A stretch of 64,000 bases of DNA, from assembly GCF_025231485.1 (NCBI RefSeq), contig NZ_CP104003.1, forward strand, positions 2,666,001-2,730,000, read 5' to 3'. The position numbers and the translations under genes are program-made. Below, piece after piece: positions 3,156 to 12,575 of the stretch. Below the pieces are notes generated by a model, which made no database searches, had not been told where the DNA came from, and saw only the letters and a list, made by a program, of their open reading frames with translations. Position 1 is the first letter of the stretch. Every line of letters starts with the position of its first letter. This DNA comes from Salinirubellus salinus. GTDB taxonomy: Archaea > Halobacteriota > Halobacteria > Halobacteriales > Haloarculaceae.

Positions 3156-3662
3156 ATGGACGAGACGCCCGAGGACGGACTCCCGCCGGAGTTCGAGTCG
3201 CTGGTGCGGACCGACACCGACCGGCTCGTGGGGCTGTACAACGGCCTGCAGGGGCTGGACGACGAGGCGTTCGCGGCCGCGTTCGCCGGCGCGCTGGACA
3301 CGCTCCGCGAGGTGGTCGACCCGGACGGCGGCGAGGCGGCGGCCGTCCTCGGCCTGACGCTGGATGGGGGCACCGTCGCCGACGCGCGCGTGCTCTCGGT
3401 CACCGACGAGGAGACGGTCCACCACGCCGCCCCGGGGACGGACGCGCCGGACGTGGCGGTCTACCTCCCGGTCCGGCCCGACGACTTCCCGCCGGGGTCG
3501 GGCGAGGCGTTCGCCGACATCGACCTCGAGGGGTTCCGCGAGGTGGTCGCCGCGATGATCTACCTGCGCTACCAGCTCGCCGAGGAGGACCCCGAGGGGC
3601 TCGCGAGCCACCACGGCGAGCCGCTGGCACGGGGGCTCCGGGCGTACGTCGACGCGGCCTGA
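3156..3662 (+). CDS. Hypothetical acidic protein (168 aa)
   Basis: An acidic soluble protein with no signal peptide, membrane segment or motif I can assign to a family. It begins MDETPEDGLPPEFESLV. There is an alpha-helical region at 20-55 (DTDRLVGLYNGLQGLDDEAF), a beta-rich middle and a helical C-terminus (FREVVAAMIYLRYQLAEED). Codon usage matches the neighbours and the start is well separated from the divergent phosphate permease, so I consider it a genuine gene. Function unknown; probably a haloarchaea-specific conserved protein. Confidence 0.65.
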   Translation: MDETPEDGLPPEFESLVRTDTDRLVGLYNGLQGLDDEAFAAAFAGALDTLREVVDPDGGEAAAVLGLTLDGGTVADARVLSVTDEETVHHAAPGTDAPDVAVYLPVRPDDFPPGSGEAFADIDLEGFREVVAAMIYLRYQLAEEDPEGLASHHGEPLARGLRAYVDAA

Positions 3663-3776
3663 GCGGCGGACGCCCCCACCGCGCGAGGGGACACATCGAC
3701 GGGGGAGTACTTTTGCCCCCGCTCGCAGACCAACGGGCGTGAACGTAGTTCCCACGCGACACGACGGAGGTGGCCG

Positions 3777-5429
3777 ATGAGCCGGACGACGGACGGCATC
3801 GTCTCGCTGTTCGAGGCGGCGGGCGTCGAGACGGTGTTCGGCTTCCCGTGCGAGCAGATGGACCCGTACTACGCGAGCCTCTCGGAGTCGGACGTGCGGC
3901 ACGTCCTCGCGCGGAGCGAGGCGAGCGCGGCGCTGATGGCCGACGGCTACGCGCGGGCGGCCCGGACACTGGGCGTCGTCGACGGCGTGAGCGGCCCCGG
4001 TGCGGCCTACATCGGTGCGGGGCTGGCCGAGGCGTCCGGGGCGTCATCGCCCGTCCTCGCACTGACGGGCGGCAACGACCTCGAGAACCGTGGGAACGGC
4101 GTCATCCAGGACGGCGACAACGAGGCCATCCTCGACCCGTTCACGCTGTCGACGGCGGACGCCGAGACGCCCGAACGAGCCGTCGAGGCCGTCGAGAACG
4201 CCATCCGGCGCTCCACGGCCGGGGTGCCGGGGCCGACCCACGTCAACCTCCCCGAGGACGTGATGCGAGCCGACCTCCCCGGGGACCACGAACCCCGGGG
4301 GGACGTGGACGGAACGTACCCCACGAGTCGACCGGAACCGAGCGCCGAGGCGGTGGCCGACACGCTCGACCTGCTGGAGGCGGCCGAGCGGCCGGTCGTC
4401 GTCGCCGGCGAGGGGATCCACCGGGCGGACGCGAACGAGACTCTGAGCGCGTTCGCCGAGGCGGCCGACGTGCCCGTCGTCACCTCGATGAACGGGAAGG
4501 GTGCCGTCGCGGAGACGGTCCCCTACGCGCTCGGCGTGGTCGGCCGCTGGGGGTTCTGTCAGGTGGCGAACGACGCCGTCGCGGACGCGGACCTCGTCCT
4601 CGGTTTCGGCACCCGGTTCGGCGAACTCACCTCCGTCGGCTGGTCGCTCGTCCCCGAGGACGTCCCGCTGGTCCACGTGGACCTCGACCCCGCGTGGCTG
4701 GGCCGGAACTACGAGCCGACCGTGGCCGTCCGGGCGGACCTCCGGGCCACGCTCGAGGCGTTGGCCGAGAGCGCCGAGGGCGATTCGGCCCGCGCCGAGC
4801 GAATCGAGTCGCTGGCCGCCGACCGGCGCGAGTGGCGCGAGAGCTTCCACGGCGACTTCACGAGCGACGCCGAGCCGGTGAAGCCACAGCGCGTGATGCA
4901 CGAGCTGAACGAGCGACTGCCGGCCGAGGCCATCCTCGTCAGCGCCACCTCGCTCCCCGGGTTCTTCTCCGGGGCGTTCTACGAGACCGAGCGGGCGGGG
5001 CTGGGCTACCTGCAGGCGCGGGGGAGTGACGGCATCAACGTCTGTCTCCCGCAGGCCCTCGGGGTGCAGGCCGCACGACCCGACACACCGGTCGTCGCGC
5101 TCTCCGGCGACGGCGGCATCGGCTACCACATCGCGGACCTCGAGACGGCCGTCCGCGAGGACCTGCCGCTGACCGTCCTCGTCACGAACAACGACTCGCT
5201 CGGCTCCTCGAAGATGAGCCAGCTCGGGACGTACAACTTCGACCTGTCCACCGACTTCCACGCGGGCGTCGACTACGCGCAGGTGGCCCGCGGGCTCGGT
5301 TGCGAGGCCGAACGTATCACCGACCCCGACCGGGTCGGGCCGGCGCTCTCGGCGGCGCTGGACTCGAACTCGGTGACGGTGCTGGACGTGCAGGTCGACC
5401 CGTACGCCGCGCCGCCGGTGCTGGTCTGA
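3777..5429 (+). CDS. Thiamine-diphosphate-dependent enzyme, acetolactate synthase-like
   Basis: A 550-residue protein with the three-domain layout of the acetolactate synthase/benzoylformate decarboxylase family. The N-terminal pyrimidine-binding domain carries the activating Glu in RSEASAALMADGYAR. The central domain spans about 190-330. The C-terminal pyrophosphate domain has the ThDP motif GDGGIGYH...NN (about residues 445-475). Length fits the family, but substrate residues are not diagnostic, so decarboxylase, carboligase or acyltransferase activity are all possible. A strong Shine-Dalgarno sequence GGAGGTG lies 4 bases before the ATG. It converges with the 3-hydroxyacyl-CoA dehydrogenase gene. 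Confidence 0.85.
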   Translation: MSRTTDGIVSLFEAAGVETVFGFPCEQMDPYYASLSESDVRHVLARSEASAALMADGYARAARTLGVVDGVSGPGAAYIGAGLAEASGASSPVLALTGGNDLENRGNGVIQDGDNEAILDPFTLSTADAETPERAVEAVENAIRRSTAGVPGPTHVNLPEDVMRADLPGDHEPRGDVDGTYPTSRPEPSAEAVADTLDLLEAAERPVVVAGEGIHRADANETLSAFAEAADVPVVTSMNGKGAVAETVPYALGVVGRWGFCQVANDAVADADLVLGFGTRFGELTSVGWSLVPEDVPLVHVDLDPAWLGRNYEPTVAVRADLRATLEALAESAEGDSARAERIESLAADRREWRESFHGDFTSDAEPVKPQRVMHELNERLPAEAILVSATSLPGFFSGAFYETERAGLGYLQARGSDGINVCLPQALGVQAARPDTPVVALSGDGGIGYHIADLETAVREDLPLTVLVTNNDSLGSSKMSQLGTYNFDLSTDFHAGVDYAQVARGLGCEAERITDPDRVGPALSAALDSNSVTVLDVQVDPYAAPPVLV

Positions 5430-6555: not shown

Positions 6556-7875
6556 TCAGAGTTCGTAGTCCGGGGTGGGGAGCGGCCCCCCCGTCCGCGT
6601 CCGCAGCAGGTAGTAGCCGCCGGCGACGGCGAGCGTGCCGAGCCAGATGCCGAACAGCTGGGGCGACTGACTCGCCAGCAGGGCCAGCAACAGGAGGTTC
6701 AGCGGGACGGCCAGCGCGGCCATCCCGGCCACGAGGCGAGGCGACAGCGGCAGAGCGTCGGCCACGTCCGCGCGCCGGTGACGGACCGCGGCGATGGCCG
6801 CGAGCATCACCGGGACGATGAGGAACGCGCCGCCGAAGCCGAGGAGCGTCCCTAGATCGGCCACCGGGAGCGGGGAGACGAGCGCGGCCGCCGAGAGGAC
6901 GTAGACGGCGACCATCCCCCAGTGGGCGGTGCCGAAGCGGTCGTTCTTCTCGGCGAGGACGGCCGGCAGGAGACCGTCCTCGGCCAGCACCTCGAGGTAC
7001 TTCGGGGTGATGATGTAGACGGCGTTGATGCTCGTCGCGATGGCGAACAGGGCGCCGGCGACGACGAACAGGGACTGGAACGCCGGCGGCAGGAACGCCT
7101 CGGCGGGCACCGCGAGCGTCTGGTCGGCCATCGCCTCGGCGCCGACCGACCCCACCGCGACGAGGCCGATACTGGCGTAGATGACCAGCACGAGCGGCAC
7201 GCTCAACAGGAACGACCGGGGGATGGTCACCGTCGCGTCGCGCACCTCGCCGCCGATGTCGACGACGAAGTTCGCGCCCAGACAGACGAAGTAGAGGACG
7301 CCCGCGGCGATCCCCACGCCGAGCACGCCGCTCGGGAACACGGGGCTGAGGTTCGCCGGGTCGACGGCGGGGACGCCGAAGGCGACGAACGACCCGAGCG
7401 CGGCGACGAGGGCCACGAACATCGCGACCTGCGCGGTGGCGGCGGGTTCGCTACCGACGACGTTCACGAGGAAGAACAGCGTCAGCAGGCCGAACCCGAC
7501 GAGCGTGGGGCTCACCGGGACGAGCGAGTCGACGTACTGCCCGGCGGTGAGCGCGTAGAGCGGCAGGCCGCCGGTGAACATGCTGATGCCGAGGCCGATG
7601 GCGCTCAGGAACGCGAGCGGGCGGGACACGAGCGTCGCCGGGTAGCGGTAGTTCCCGCCCGTGGTGGGGAACGCCGCGCCGAGCATCGCCGTCGGCAGGA
7701 GGCCGAGGATGGCGATGCCGAACGCGAGGCCGAACGCCAGCACGACGCCCGGTCCGGCGAAGCCGACGGCGACACCGGTGAGACTGAACAGCGCCCCGCC
7801 GACGATGAGGCCGACCTCGATGCTCACCGCCTGGAACAGGCCGATACCGTCGCCCGCGGACTGTCGCCCCACCAC
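6556..7875 (-). CDS. APC-superfamily amino acid/amine permease
   Basis: A 439-residue protein with about 12 hydrophobic segments, beginning after a short hydrophilic leader. The APC hallmark in helix 1 is IEVGLIVGGALFSLTG (usually GxxIGxGIF). It lacks a soluble C-terminal domain. It probably imports an amino acid or amine by cation symport. First gene of a two-gene unit with the 3-hydroxyacyl-CoA dehydrogenase, and divergent from the Lrp/AsnC regulator 109 bases away, a common arrangement for regulator and regulated transporter. Confidence 0.85.
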   Translation of the reverse strand: MVGRQSAGDGIGLFQAVSIEVGLIVGGALFSLTGVAVGFAGPGVVLAFGLAFGIAILGLLPTAMLGAAFPTTGGNYRYPATLVSRPLAFLSAIGLGISMFTGGLPLYALTAGQYVDSLVPVSPTLVGFGLLTLFFLVNVVGSEPAATAQVAMFVALVAALGSFVAFGVPAVDPANLSPVFPSGVLGVGIAAGVLYFVCLGANFVVDIGGEVRDATVTIPRSFLLSVPLVLVIYASIGLVAVGSVGAEAMADQTLAVPAEAFLPPAFQSLFVVAGALFAIATSINAVYIITPKYLEVLAEDGLLPAVLAEKNDRFGTAHWGMVAVYVLSAAALVSPLPVADLGTLLGFGGAFLIVPVMLAAIAAVRHRRADVADALPLSPRLVAGMAALAVPLNLLLLALLASQSPQLFGIWLGTLAVAGGYYLLRTRTGGPLPTPDYEL

Positions 7876-7984
7876 GTGTCACCGTGGCGCACGGAGCAGG
7901 GAGACAAGAGCGTTGCGGCGTCCAGGACAGGGACGGCGACCGGCGGGCGGAAACGGCTTGCCGGTCGGGGCAGAACCGTGCCGT

Positions 7985-8497
7985 ATGACCGACGACACCG
8001 TCGACGAGGTGGACCGCGCCATCCTCCACGCCCTGCAGGACGACGCACGGAACCTCTCCTCCGAGGAGATCGCCGAGCGGGCCGGCATCGCGGGCAGCAC
8101 GGTCCGCAAGCGCATCCGCCGGCTCGAGGAGCGTGGCGTCGTCAAGGGGTACGACGCCGCCGTCGACTACGCCCGCTCTGGCTACCCGCTCCGGATGCTC
8201 CTGTTCTGTACCGCCGCCATCCCCGAACGGGGCGAGATGGTGCCGCGCATCCTCGACATCGAGGGGGTCGTCTCCGTGCAGGAACTCGTCACCGGCGAGG
8301 AGAACCTCCTCGTGACCGCCGTGGGTGAGACGGACGCCGACATCACCCCGGTCGCCCAGCGACTGCTGGACATGGGGCTGACCGTCAGCGACGAGGTGCT
8401 GGTTCGAAGCCACGAGACCACCCCATTCAGCGGGTTCGTGGCAGGGACGGGCGACGAGGACGAGAGCGAGGACGCGGCCGAGGGGGAGGGCGACTGA
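7985..8497 (+). CDS. Lrp/AsnC-family transcriptional regulator
   Basis: A 170-residue protein with an N-terminal winged HTH (VDRAILHALQDDARNLSSEEIAERAGIAGSTVRKRIRRLEERGVVKGY) followed by a RAM-like ligand domain and an acidic C-terminal tail. The start at 7985 gives MTDDTVDEVDRAILHALQDD, the canonical Lrp N-terminus; the longer upstream frame overlaps the divergent permease gene and is not coding. It sits between the APC permease operon and dabBA, so either or both may be targets. An array of GAACRAW-type half-sites lies just downstream in the dabB promoter. Confidence 0.87.
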   Translation: MTDDTVDEVDRAILHALQDDARNLSSEEIAERAGIAGSTVRKRIRRLEERGVVKGYDAAVDYARSGYPLRMLLFCTAAIPERGEMVPRILDIEGVVSVQELVTGEENLLVTAVGETDADITPVAQRLLDMGLTVSDEVLVRSHETTPFSGFVAGTGDEDESEDAAEGEGD

Positions 8498-8518
8498 TCG
8501 GGGCGGCCCAGAAGGTGA

Positions 8519-8574
8519 GAATCGTTCCCGATAAACAATGTAGAGAACAATTTGTTCGTACAGAACGATTTATT
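8519..8574 (+). promoter_or_regulatory. dabB promoter with nested inverted repeats
   Basis: An AT-rich island in GC-rich surroundings. A perfect 13-bp palindrome GAACAATTTGTTC (8545-8557) sits inside a wider inverted repeat, GAATCGTTC (8519-8527) and GAACGATT (8563-8570). The right arm overlaps a TATA-like TTTATTA (8568-8574) that would place transcription start near 8600, about 55 bases before dabB. Four related half-sites suggest cooperative binding of a dimeric regulator, with occlusion of TBP as the simplest mechanism. The neighbouring Lrp-family protein is the obvious candidate. Repeats and TATA are seen directly; the regulator is inferred. Confidence 0.6.
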
Positions 8575-8653
8575 AGACATTACGTTCTTAGAGGCGGGTA
8601 CAGAGGGCCGGACTGGTCGTCGGGTCGACGGCCGGCCGGTCGCCACACCGAAG

Positions 8654-10138
8654 ATGACAGGTGAGACAGGGACGAAGACGGTCGGCGAGTTGCCGAGCGC
8701 GTCGGGGACGACGTCGCTCGTACCGGCGGTCCTCACGCGCGTCGTGTGGGGACTGTGGCTACTGAGCCTCGTGGCGGTGGCCGCGCGACTCACCGGCGGG
8801 GGGCGGTGGGAGGTGCCCGGCGTGTTCGCCGTCGACGGCCTGACGCTCCTCATGTGGAGCGTCGTAACGTTCTTCGCGGGCGTCGTCCTCAGCTACTCGC
8901 GGCGCTACCTCGCCGGTGACCGCCACGAGACGCGCTTCTTCGTGCGTGTGGGCGCGTTCACACTGGCCGTGCTGGTGCTGGTGGCGGCCGACCACCTGCT
9001 GCTGTTCCTCGGCGCGTGGGTGGCGATGGGGCTGGTCATGGCCGGCCTCGTCGGCCACGTCGCCGACTGGGAGCAGGCGCAGGCGGCCCGCCGCCTCGCG
9101 CGGAACTACTTCCTCGCCGGCGGCGCGTCGCTGGCCGTCGCGCTCGGGACGCTCTGGGCGACGACGGGCGCCACGACCGTCTCGGAGGTCGCGGCGGCCG
9201 CCGCGGGCGCCTCGGGTGGCGTCTGGTCGCTCGTCGGCCTGACGCTCCTGCTGGCGGCGATGGTCCAGTCCGCGCTGGCGCCGTTCCACACGTGGCTGCT
9301 CTCGTCGATGACCGCGCCGACGCCGGCGTCGGCGCTCATGCACGCCGGCTTCGTCAACGCCGGCGGCATCCTGCTGACCCGGTTCGCCCCCGTCGTCACC
9401 GTGGACCCGAGCGTGCTGCTGCTCGTGGTGCTCGTCGGGGCGGCCAGCGCGCTGCTCGGGAAGTTCCTGAAGTCGGTGGCCGCCGACGTCAAGCGCCAGC
9501 TCGGCTGCTCGACGATGGGGCAGATGGGGTTCATGATGCTGCAGGCCGGGCTCGGCTTCTTCGGCGCGGCCATCACCCACCTCGTCCTCCACGGGTTCTA
9601 CAAGGCGTACCTCTTCCTCGCCGCCGGCGAGCGGGTCGAACGGACCGCCCCGGCAGCCCGCGGGGAGCCGGCCCGTACCGGCCCCGTCGGATGGCTGGTG
9701 ACCGGTCTCGCGGCGCTGGCCGGCGGCGCCATCTTCGTCCTCCTCACGGGCAAGGGAACGAGCCTCGACGGTGGTCTCCTGCTGACGCTGCTGGTCGTGC
9801 TGACGACGCTCCACGCGACCCGCGATCTCGTGCGCCGGACCTCGCTCCCCGCACGGCTCCGCTACGGCGCGGTGCCGCTGGTGTTCCTGCCCGCAGTGGC
9901 GCTCTACGCGGGCGTCTACGTCGGCGTCACCGGGCTGCTGTCCGACCTGCCGGTCGTCACGGCACCGGTCGTCCTGACGCCGCTGCACTGGCTCGTCGTG
10001 GGCGCGTTCGTCCTCGCCTACGCCCTCGCCGAGACCGGCGTCTACCGCCGGAGCACGCGGCTCTACGTCGCGCTCCTGAACCTCGGCCAGCCGGCGCCGG
10101 GAACGCTCGCCGCGGGCACGGAGGTGGCCGATGACTGA
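8654..10138 (+). CDS. dabB: DabB: proton-conducting NuoL/MrpA-like subunit of inorganic-carbon transporter
   Basis: A 494-residue, ~14-helix membrane protein of the proton-conducting complex I antiporter family. Diagnostic stretches include HTWLLSSMTAPTPASALMHAGFVNAGGILL and STMGQMGFMMLQAGLGFFGAAITHLVLHGFYKAYLFL, with the conserved lysine/histidine proton path. No other Nuo or Mrp subunit is nearby; instead its stop overlaps the start of the DUF2309 gene by 8 bases, the diagnostic DAB pair. DabB is thought to feed cation/proton energy to DabA. I start at the ATG giving MTGETGTKTVG; an upstream in-frame ATG lies within the palindromic promoter. Confidence 0.88.
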   Translation: MTGETGTKTVGELPSASGTTSLVPAVLTRVVWGLWLLSLVAVAARLTGGGRWEVPGVFAVDGLTLLMWSVVTFFAGVVLSYSRRYLAGDRHETRFFVRVGAFTLAVLVLVAADHLLLFLGAWVAMGLVMAGLVGHVADWEQAQAARRLARNYFLAGGASLAVALGTLWATTGATTVSEVAAAAAGASGGVWSLVGLTLLLAAMVQSALAPFHTWLLSSMTAPTPASALMHAGFVNAGGILLTRFAPVVTVDPSVLLLVVLVGAASALLGKFLKSVAADVKRQLGCSTMGQMGFMMLQAGLGFFGAAITHLVLHGFYKAYLFLAAGERVERTAPAARGEPARTGPVGWLVTGLAALAGGAIFVLLTGKGTSLDGGLLLTLLVVLTTLHATRDLVRRTSLPARLRYGAVPLVFLPAVALYAGVYVGVTGLLSDLPVVTAPVVLTPLHWLVVGAFVLAYALAETGVYRRSTRLYVALLNLGQPAPGTLAAGTEVADD

Positions 10139-12575
10139 GACCGGCACCGACGTCGTCCGCACGGCCGTCGACCGCGCGGCCCAGTCGGTCGCGCCCGTCT
10201 GGCCGCTCCACTCGTTCGTGACCGCGAACCCGCTCGCCGGGTTCGAGGACCGCCCGTTCGACGAGGCGGTCCGCGCGGGTTCGGCGCTGTTCGGCGGCCG
10301 CGGCTACCCCTCGGCCGAGACGTTCCGCCGTGCGTGGGCGGCCGACCTGATAGCCGAGGGACACCTCCGCGAGCAGCTGTCGGCCGCCGGTATCGAGGAG
10401 CGGGACCCCGAGACGCTCCTCGAGCGCCTCTCGGCCGCGGAGGCAGAGACCGCGACCCGGCCGACCGACGAGGCGACGGCTCGCGTCGACCGCCTGCTGA
10501 CGAAGTGGCTGGCCGTCTTCCTCGACGAGGGGAAGGCCGACTGGCCGATGCCGAACCGCGAGGACGGGTTCTACGCCGCGTTCCGTGCCGTCGTACGGTA
10601 CGACCGGGCGATACCGGACCGCGCGACGCTCGCCGACCTGCCCGACGACCCCGAGGCGGCCGTCGAGCGCGTGCTGGCCGGCCACCCGGCGGACTGCTGG
10701 CCCGAGATCCTCGAGACACACCTGACCGCCCTCCCTGGCTGGACCGGCCTGATGAAGCACCGCGCCGAGGCGGGCGAGGTGTGGCAGCGGGCCGCACCAG
10801 TCACCCTGACCGAGTACCTCGCGGTCCGCCTGACGCTGGTCGACCTGTGCGGGGCGCCGGTCGACCCGGAGGTGGGCACCGCGACCGACGACGACGGTGA
10901 GTGGGCGCTCGCCGACGCGTGGCTCGCGGCGTGGGAGGCGACCTACCGCGAGGAACTGGTGGGCGCGCTGACCGAGGCGAGCGCCGCGCTCGACGGCGAG
11001 GCGACGGCCGACGGCGGCCGCCCGGACGCCCAACTCGCGTTCTGTATCGACACGCGTTCGGAGGTGTTCCGCCGCCACCTGGAGGCCGCGGGCGACTACG
11101 AGACGCTCGGCTACGCCGGCTTCTTCGGCGTGCCGATGCGGTTCCGCGGCTACGACGACGCGGTCTCGGCGGCCGCCTGCCCGCCCATCCTCGACCCGGG
11201 CCACAACGTCGAGGACCGCCCGGTCGACGGCCACGAGGCCGAGCGGGCGGCCCACGACCGCTGGACGTCGCTCCGCTCGGCCGCGAGCGGCCTGTTCGAG
11301 ACGCTCAAGTCCAACGCAGCGACCGCGTTCAGTTTCGTCGAGAGCGCCGGGAGCGGCTACGGACTCGCGCTGGCGGCTCGCACCCTCCGCCCGCGCGAGT
11401 CGGCCGACGCCGCCGAGCGGGCCGTCGGATCGCCCGACACCCACGAGTTCTGCGAGCCGACGGTCGCGCACGACCCGGACGCCGAGACGGGCGACGACCT
11501 CCCGCTCGGCATGACCCACGAGGAGCAGGTCGAGTACGCCGCCGGTGCGTTCGACCTGATGGGCGTCGAGACGTTCGCCCGCCTCGTCTGCTTCGTCGGG
11601 CACGCCGGCGAGACGGCGAACAATCCGTTCGAGTCGAGTCTCGACTGCGGGGCCTGCGCCGGCAACCCCGGCGGCCCGAACGCCCGCGTCCTCGCGGCCA
11701 TCTGTAACGACGAGTCGGTCCGCGCGTCGCTGGCCGAGCGCGGCATCGAGGTCCCCGACGACACCGTGTTCGTCGCCGGGCAGCACAACACCACGACCGA
11801 CGAGGTGACGCTGTTCGACGGCCCGGTGTCCGAGAGCCACGCCGCGGACCTCGCGTCGCTCCGCGAGTCGCTGGCGACGGCCCGCCGCGGCGCGGCCGCC
11901 GAGCGCGTGGCCGACATGGGACTCGACCGCGAGGACGCCCTCGCCGAGACCGAGCGCCGGGCGGCCGACTGGGCCGAGACCCGCCCCGAGTGGGGGCTGG
12001 CCGGCAACGCCGCGTTCGTCGTCGGGCCGCGCGAGCTGACCGCGGACCTCGACCTCGACGGTCGCTCGTTCCTCCACTCGTACGACTGGCGGACCGACGA
12101 CGACGGGAGCGCCCTCGAGGCCATCGTCGGCGGGCCGATGGTCGTGACCCAGTGGATCAACAGCCAGTACTACTTCGCCAGCGTCGACCCCGACGTCTAC
12201 GGCAGCGGGTCGAAGGTGACCCACAACCCGGTCGGCAACGTCGGCGTCTACCGCGGCAACGGCGGCGACCTCGCGACGGGCCTGCCGCTCCAGTCGGTCC
12301 GTGCGACCGACGACGACCCCTATCACCAGCCGCTCCGGCTGTCGGTCGTCATCCACACCCCGGTCGACCGCGTGACCGACGTGCTGGCGTCCCAGTCGAA
12401 CGTCGCCAGCCTGCTCGACGAGGGCTGGCTCTCGTTGACCGTGGTCGACCCGACCCGCGAGCACCGCGCGTTCACCTACGACGGCGACCTGACGTGGGAG
12501 CCGGCGGTCCGCGTCGAGGCGACGCCGACGGCGGCCGACGGCGGGAACGAGGTCGGCGTCGAGAGCGACGACTGA
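10131..12575 (+). CDS. dabA: DabA: DUF2309 carbonic-anhydrase-like subunit of inorganic-carbon transporter
   Basis: An 814-residue soluble/peripheral protein of the DUF2309 family. In characterised DABs it works with DabB to hydrate CO2 vectorially to bicarbonate. The beta-carbonic-anhydrase-like zinc site is intact: Cys305 and Asp307 in FCIDTRSE, His491 in GHAGETANNPF and Cys506 in LDCGACAGN. The C-x-D and H-(14)-C spacings match my recollection of the characterised bacterial enzyme. The start overlaps the dabB stop, and GGAGGTGG lies 3 bases upstream of the ATG. A heterotrophic haloarchaeon could use it to supply bicarbonate for anaplerotic carboxylases. Confidence 0.92.
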   Translation: MTETGTDVVRTAVDRAAQSVAPVWPLHSFVTANPLAGFEDRPFDEAVRAGSALFGGRGYPSAETFRRAWAADLIAEGHLREQLSAAGIEERDPETLLERLSAAEAETATRPTDEATARVDRLLTKWLAVFLDEGKADWPMPNREDGFYAAFRAVVRYDRAIPDRATLADLPDDPEAAVERVLAGHPADCWPEILETHLTALPGWTGLMKHRAEAGEVWQRAAPVTLTEYLAVRLTLVDLCGAPVDPEVGTATDDDGEWALADAWLAAWEATYREELVGALTEASAALDGEATADGGRPDAQLAFCIDTRSEVFRRHLEAAGDYETLGYAGFFGVPMRFRGYDDAVSAAACPPILDPGHNVEDRPVDGHEAERAAHDRWTSLRSAASGLFETLKSNAATAFSFVESAGSGYGLALAARTLRPRESADAAERAVGSPDTHEFCEPTVAHDPDAETGDDLPLGMTHEEQVEYAAGAFDLMGVETFARLVCFVGHAGETANNPFESSLDCGACAGNPGGPNARVLAAICNDESVRASLAERGIEVPDDTVFVAGQHNTTTDEVTLFDGPVSESHAADLASLRESLATARRGAAAERVADMGLDREDALAETERRAADWAETRPEWGLAGNAAFVVGPRELTADLDLDGRSFLHSYDWRTDDDGSALEAIVGGPMVVTQWINSQYYFASVDPDVYGSGSKVTHNPVGNVGVYRGNGGDLATGLPLQSVRATDDDPYHQPLRLSVVIHTPVDRVTDVLASQSNVASLLDEGWLSLTVVDPTREHRAFTYDGDLTWEPAVRVEATPTAADGGNEVGVESDD

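Follow-up and report, generated by a model that had tools for sequence, protein, structure and literature searches.

The window analysed here is a stretch of 64,000 nucleotides from the genome of Salinirubellus salinus, a genome of about 72% GC. Within it, a gene for an Lrp-family protein is followed, across a gap of 156 bp, by dabB and then by dabA. The dabA product matches the DabA model PF10070 over positions 1-747 of 747, and the overlapping dabB encodes a NuoL-like protein with Proton_antipo_M and _N domains. This is the gene pair of a DAB transporter, and dabBA may be regarded as a predicted CO2/bicarbonate uptake pump; dabA and dabB of Haloferax, which in Haloferax volcanii are HVO_2410 and HVO_2411, are annotated as a predicted CO2 transporter, a prediction made from homology (excerpt of PMC8305020). 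The neighbouring genes for an APC permease and a TPP enzyme were rejected as parts of the system, with matches in 0 of the 80 other dabBA loci as fetched; a 3-hydroxyacyl-CoA dehydrogenase-like gene has matches of 29-30% identity in two of the 80. The features on which our argument rests are the following.

7985-8497, plus strand: lrp, encoding a protein of 170 aa for which we propose the name DabR (HTH_24 and HTH_AsnC-type domains above Pfam cut-offs; linkage to dabB; co-occurrence with dabA)
8524-8527, no strand assigned: distal half-site GTTC, at -21 relative to the central GAAC (GTTC at -21/-22 in 66/72 anchored orthologous promoters)
8534-8599, plus strand: match to the held-out profile R1 (36.8 bits, E 1.1e-8 over 4.38 Mb)
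8545-8557, no strand assigned: central site GAACAATTTGTTC, with its left half GAAC as position 0 (GAAC in 70/72; GTTC at +9 in 2/72)
8563-8568, plus strand: BRE-like stretch upstream of the TATA box, beginning with GAAC here (GAAC at +18 in 0/72 others)
8569-8575, plus strand: TATA box TTTATTA, consensus TTTAATA (A2 alignment and anchored consensus)
8584-8587, no strand assigned: proximal half-site GTTC, at +39 (70/72 anchored promoters; invariant or nearly invariant A2 columns)
8606-8641, plus strand: 5'-leader hairpin of the dabB transcript (window leader z -2.9; stem tests across loci)
8654-10138, plus strand: dabB, membrane subunit of the predicted DAB inorganic-carbon transporter (Proton_antipo_M E 1.3e-36; overlaps the start of dabA)
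10131-12575, plus strand: dabA (PF10070, 873 bits)

Half-sites around the dabB TATA box

A sequence-only reading of this DNA had placed nested inverted repeats with four half-sites at 8519-8574. The repeats exist, with AATCGTTC at 8520-8527 as the left outer arm and GAACGATT at 8563-8570 as the right, but they are not concentric, the outer pair being centred at 8545 and the inner at 8551. Moreover, five GAAC/GTTC half-sites are present between lrp and dabB (first bases at 8524, 8545, 8554, 8563 and 8584), and the GTTC at 8584-8587, which lies beyond that interval, is among the most conserved. The same reading was right that the outermost arm overlaps a TATA-like element, by two bases (8563-8570 against 8569-8575), and that an Lrp-family gene ends just upstream, its stop codon ending at 8497 and the dabB ATG standing at 8654. 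Transcription is predicted from the TATA spacing to start at about 8597-8601, which places the proximal GTTC downstream of the TATA box and ahead of that start.

The density of half-sites is unusual (five in 70 bp, P 0.008 in 5000 dinucleotide shuffles of the lrp-dabB gap), whereas in the same shuffles neither the central palindrome with its 6-bp arms nor the 8-bp outer arms is convincing alone (P 0.07 each). The perfect palindrome, for which a search of dabB orthologues had been proposed, is missing from nearly all of them, but the half-site array is there. We therefore reject the perfect palindrome and the outer arms as a conserved unit, given right halves of GTTC in 2/72 promoters and GAAC in 0/72. 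The right half of the central site is elsewhere mostly GGTA or GTGA, the GAAC that begins the BRE-like stretch (and forms part of the right outer arm) is private to the Salinirubellus salinus genome, and so, for the most part, are the palindromes originally seen. The unit is better described as a set of GTTC/GAAC half-sites arrayed about the TATA box of dabB, spanning 8524-8587 (about 64 bp), than as a nested palindrome.

Conservation was followed through 195 related genomes, 107 of which carry dabA. For 80 of the 107 we fetched the sequence 5' of dabA, leaving out the window and 26 others. For the anchored counts eight of the 80 were dropped, either as mis-anchored (L049, L071, L090, L104, L105 and L106) or for a score below 9 (L087 and L103), leaving 72 promoters. 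Lined up by their central GAAC, the promoters have a consensus of roughly AAACCATAATGTTCTATAAT-n10-CGAACAATTTGGTAATATAGAYAGATTTAATAACCAGTCTGTTCG, with which the window agrees at 29 of the 34 columns of at least 70% identity. The counts for GAAC at 0, GTTC at -21/-22 and GTTC at +39 are inflated, because anchoring on the central GAAC maximises all three, and the unbiased test is the held-out profile. Since anchoring favours those twelve GTTC/GAAC letters, this profile, R1, was built by sequence only, from 71 promoters with the window excluded (alignment A2, covering 71 of the 80 loci and leaving out L049, L071, L087, L090, L099, L102, L104, L105 and L106).

The sole place that R1 finds in the Salinirubellus salinus genome is the dabB promoter, which also scores weakly on the opposite strand. 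At E <= 1.3e-7 it matches 103 of the 195 genomes, namely 102 of the 107 with dabA, plus G089. Among the 26 dabA genomes outside the training fetch, 22 match, each time on the dabA strand and no more than 2 kb ahead of that gene (coordinates compared by eye); the four with no R1 match are G138 and three that hold dabA fragments (G061, G080 and G110), and a fetched genome with dabA, G133, likewise gave none. R1 further matches all 80 named loci drawn by their Lrp protein (24.7-79.5 bits; the genera include Haloarcula, Halorubrum, Natronomonas, Halobellus, Halorientalis and Haloquadratum), which are not a fully independent sample because many are probably of the same species as the 195 genomes. 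A match in G144 (E 3.8e-4), a genome with neither dabA nor a close lrp orthologue, was taken as chance. A wider regulon in the Salinirubellus salinus genome was rejected: a strict pattern adds a single GC-rich site (G000:C1:3316906), which R1 does not support. That the dabB promoter holds a regulatory site, as first suspected from the letters, is supported, with the array conserved across Halobacteria; its reach throughout the order goes beyond what that reading could see.

The lrp gene and its tie to dab

The Lrp gene had also been named as the likely partner of the repeats, and this too is supported. One Lrp/AsnC orthologue precedes dabB, in the same orientation, in 79 of the 80 loci. The distance between the two genes is 147-2029 bp, with a gap of at most 600 bp in 46 loci and of more than 900 bp in 33. 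In the 80th locus (G028) the orthologue lies about 52 kb off and the array is kept (E 2.4e-13). In most of the 33 long gaps (e.g., L031), the longest frame encodes an opposite-strand protein, amidohydrolase-like by eye and divergent from dabB, one example of which had no NCBIfam match. In L087, a carbonic-anhydrase-like gene (3631-4335) stands between lrp and dabB; its Pfam Pro_CA score of 24.3 bits is just below the cut-off of 25.7.

Across the 195 genomes, with orthologues called at 200 bits or more (62-79% identity), dabA and the orthologue occur together in 102, dabA alone in five, the orthologue alone in two and neither in 86. The pairing of the Lrp gene with dabA has almost no exceptions, and this too exceeds what the sequence-only reading could see. 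The association is strong by Fisher's test (p 2e-46), which ignores phylogeny, and much of it could be due to shared descent. Among the five genomes with dabA only, three have only dabA fragments, G138 has an lrp end at a contig edge, and in G125 the contig starts 1.1 kb before dabB; in G089, which has the orthologue only, dabB is cut by the contig end. The real exception is G124, which has a DabR orthologue (72% identical) and no DabA. There (L193, 4985-10561), lrp is flanked by a universal-stress-protein gene and, on the opposite strand, by genes for an anaerobic CO dehydrogenase and for a MinD/ParA-type ATPase whose position suggests a CooC-like protein, and a weak array (E 0.009) precedes a gene for a NarK-like MFS transporter about 2 kb upstream of lrp.

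The DNA-binding domain places DabR in the Lrp family, but the protein is none of the named equivalogs. Its N-terminal AsnC-type winged helix-turn-helix scores above cut-off for both PF13412 (E 5.8e-15) and PF13404 (E 4.3e-13), and its profile matches solved Lrp proteins including PH1519/FL11, Pyrococcus furiosus LrpA and Mycobacterium tuberculosis entries. Against the NCBIfam models for LrpA, LysM, and the haloarchaeal LrpA1 and Lrp, it reaches 42-50 bits versus cut-offs of 180-250, and no C-terminal RAM-type family is among its Pfam matches at E 0.001. The predicted secondary structure runs from the winged helix-turn-helix to a beta-alpha-beta-beta-alpha-beta order at low confidence (mean pLDDT 59.5); the best Foldseek matches of the model are Lrp proteins with poor superposition (TM ~0.3-0.4), and the model is too poor for an effector pocket to be read from it. 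In an orthologue alignment that joins the window to 27 of the 79 loci (A3), the DNA-binding domain of the window's protein (7985-8143) has AGIAGSTVRKRIRR around the recognition helix, against TGTSDSTVRKRIQR in the family consensus, a divergence that parallels the window's diverged distal operator half.

Many Lrp proteins autoregulate. The region upstream of lrp itself has no array, and autoregulation through an array of the dabB type was rejected: lrp has a conserved promoter of the leaderless type, ACGTnCAAnnGTAAAGTG...GCGGACACAC, seen in 69 aligned loci (e.g., L037). In some loci a possible GTGTCC...GGACAC dyad stands just 5' of the lrp ATG; the window preserves it poorly.

A hairpin in the dabB leader

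Between the array and the dabB start codon, most loci have complementary arms, ACGACC ... GGTCGT. Leaders were taken after leaving out ten of the 80 loci (L049, L071, L087, L090, L096, L099 and L103-L106), which gave 71 sequences with the window included, 65 of them of at least 60 nt and 61 once ten near-duplicates were removed. Leader folding is stronger than that of coding control segments (median z -1.15 versus -0.18, 71 each), and the two arms of a locus pair better with each other than after an exchange with other loci (z -8.9, 65 loci), with at least half of the foreign arms pairing equally well in 15 of the 65. A named stem of eight pairs has 76% standard pairs in the 61 sequences, against 11-40% when it is slid, and a covariation score above all 500 shuffles; two of its pairs are unpaired in 31/61 and 29/61 sequences, and relatedness inflates all of these figures. 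RNAalifold on the raw leader alignment returned no pairs, and no Rfam family matched up to E 1 in 7500-10500. The swapped-arm and pair-count tests support a leader hairpin with covarying arms as a putative second conserved layer between array and start codon. It possibly lies at the very 5' end of the dabB mRNA.

A proposed DabR operator and its known relatives

We suggest that the array is the operator of dabBA and that it is bound by DabR, a local and dedicated Lrp-type regulator encoded next to it, in a state that is most likely repressive and modulated by an effector; as a whole, we consider this proposal, drawn from sequence comparison, to be likely. That DabR binds the array is probable, and we lean, with less assurance, towards repression as the net effect. 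DabR dimers would recognise the GAAC/GTTC half-sites. A dyad scan of the aligned promoters gave good centres at about -24/-25, +6 (or +4) and +34, although its z values are just 1.8-3.7, other centres are comparable and the array is no clean dyad series. These centres lie roughly three helical turns apart, and hence several dimers could bind one face of the promoter and bend or wrap it. Archaeal Lrp dimers are described as binding imperfect inverted repeats of 13-17 bp whose centres are AT-rich, with two or three turns between neighbouring sites (excerpt of PMC2995911), and the array appears compatible with such binding and with the oligomerisation and effector response of the Lrp/AsnC family. 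Once bound, DabR would block basal factors or RNA polymerase; repression is favoured because the half-sites flank the TATA box and the proximal GTTC falls between it and the transcription start, a layout already thought to suit repression in the sequence-only reading and compatible with it. A small effector, bound in the C-terminal (RAM-like) domain and reporting inorganic-carbon or anaplerotic demand, would lift or modulate the block, and the leader hairpin would act after initiation, on mRNA stability or translation. We infer both the oligomeric arrangement and the effector of DabR.

Other interpretations deserve consideration. With the central and distal sites both 5' of the BRE-like stretch, there may be room for activation, and archaeal Lrp proteins can also activate from just upstream of the BRE, where the central site falls. 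It is conceivable, if rather unlikely, that DabR and the array act as proposed but that DabR is chiefly an activator, its distal and central sites helping to recruit basal factors when carbon is short, as with Ptr2, a positive regulator with two regularly spaced sites at its targets (excerpt of PMC2995911); yet the GTTC downstream of the TATA box, conserved like the central GAAC (70/72 each), is hard to reconcile with a pure activator. A different transcription factor might also bind the array while the neighbouring Lrp protein controls something else, as the persistence of the array in G028 with its unlinked lrp would allow, and the Salinirubellus salinus genome does encode other Lrp paralogues, two at the least, with identities of 41-48%. 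The distributions of array and orthologue are nonetheless almost identical, down to the dab-less G124 with its weak array about 2 kb from lrp, and we consider this explanation improbable.

We give very little credence to the notion that nothing more than a strong constitutive core promoter (BRE, TATA box and start region) is conserved here and that the half-sites are chance or basal-factor signals. The BRE and TATA columns do belong to the conserved part, and the promoter is an AT-rich stretch in a 72% GC genome; but conserved GTTC/GAAC letters lie outside the BRE and TATA box at a fixed spacing, and R1 matches the dabB promoter alone in this genome and not many promoters. An extension of the DabR operator proposal, which we regard as speculative and on balance unlikely, would give the Haloarchaea a dedicated Lrp-family sensor of inorganic carbon (CO2, bicarbonate or a carboxylation product) in place of LysR or PII, acting through a three-site wrapping operator, with the covarying leader hairpin as a second layer and, in one dab-less lineage, a position beside CO dehydrogenase and a transporter.

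In bacteria, DAB transporters serve to supply inorganic carbon, and the same is predicted for haloarchaea. A regulator-operator pair that is near-universal in dab-carrying Halobacteria is a precise target, one gene and about 64 bp, in an order that has genetic model species; with a conserved element and a dedicated Lrp gene in hand, control of the haloarchaeal DAB pump is therefore directly testable. If the DabR operator proposal is true, Lrp-family control extends to inorganic-carbon uptake. Many mRNAs are leaderless in Halobacteria, and the leader hairpin would be notable there as a possible RNA layer. The sequence-only reading held the control of archaeal DAB transporters to be undescribed, and in open-licence PMC papers we likewise found nothing specific on it.

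Several known systems resemble parts of this proposal. In bacteria, DabB-DabA (NuoL-YbcC) operons often come with a LysR or PII gene; the transporter gene pair is the same and a regulator gene stands at its 5' end, but Lrp goes unmentioned in the excerpt of that paper (PMC5700660), and the haloarchaeal regulator is a same-strand Lrp protein. Ss-LrpB of Sulfolobus, three interacting dimers of which wrap about 100 bp on spaced sites (excerpt of PMC2995911), recalls the spaced sites and three candidate centres proposed for DabR; in contrast, the dabB array consists of degenerate half-sites placed about another gene's TATA box, the promoter of dabR itself lacks them, and wrapping is here a proposal. 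LrpA1 of Halobacterium salinarum, which represses aspB3 in a ligand (aspartate)-dependent manner and whose own promoter carries an inverted repeat needed for binding (excerpt of PMC2894021), is a haloarchaeal Lrp protein acting on a neighbouring gene, as proposed for DabR. It belongs, however, to another Lrp clade (DabR scores 44 bits against the LrpA1_Halo model, cut-off 250), has another target and binds its own promoter, whereas that of dabR is without the array. Trh3 of halobacteria is an Lrp-type regulator adjoining its target, carB, and a promoter motif is shared there by eighteen halobacterial species; the target belongs to arginine/pyrimidine synthesis and the regulator is a different one (excerpt of PMC4177876). 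LrpA1-aspB3 and Trh3-carB are the nearest working parallels, and DabR with its array would appear to be a local Lrp-type regulator and operator of a known kind, with a new target.
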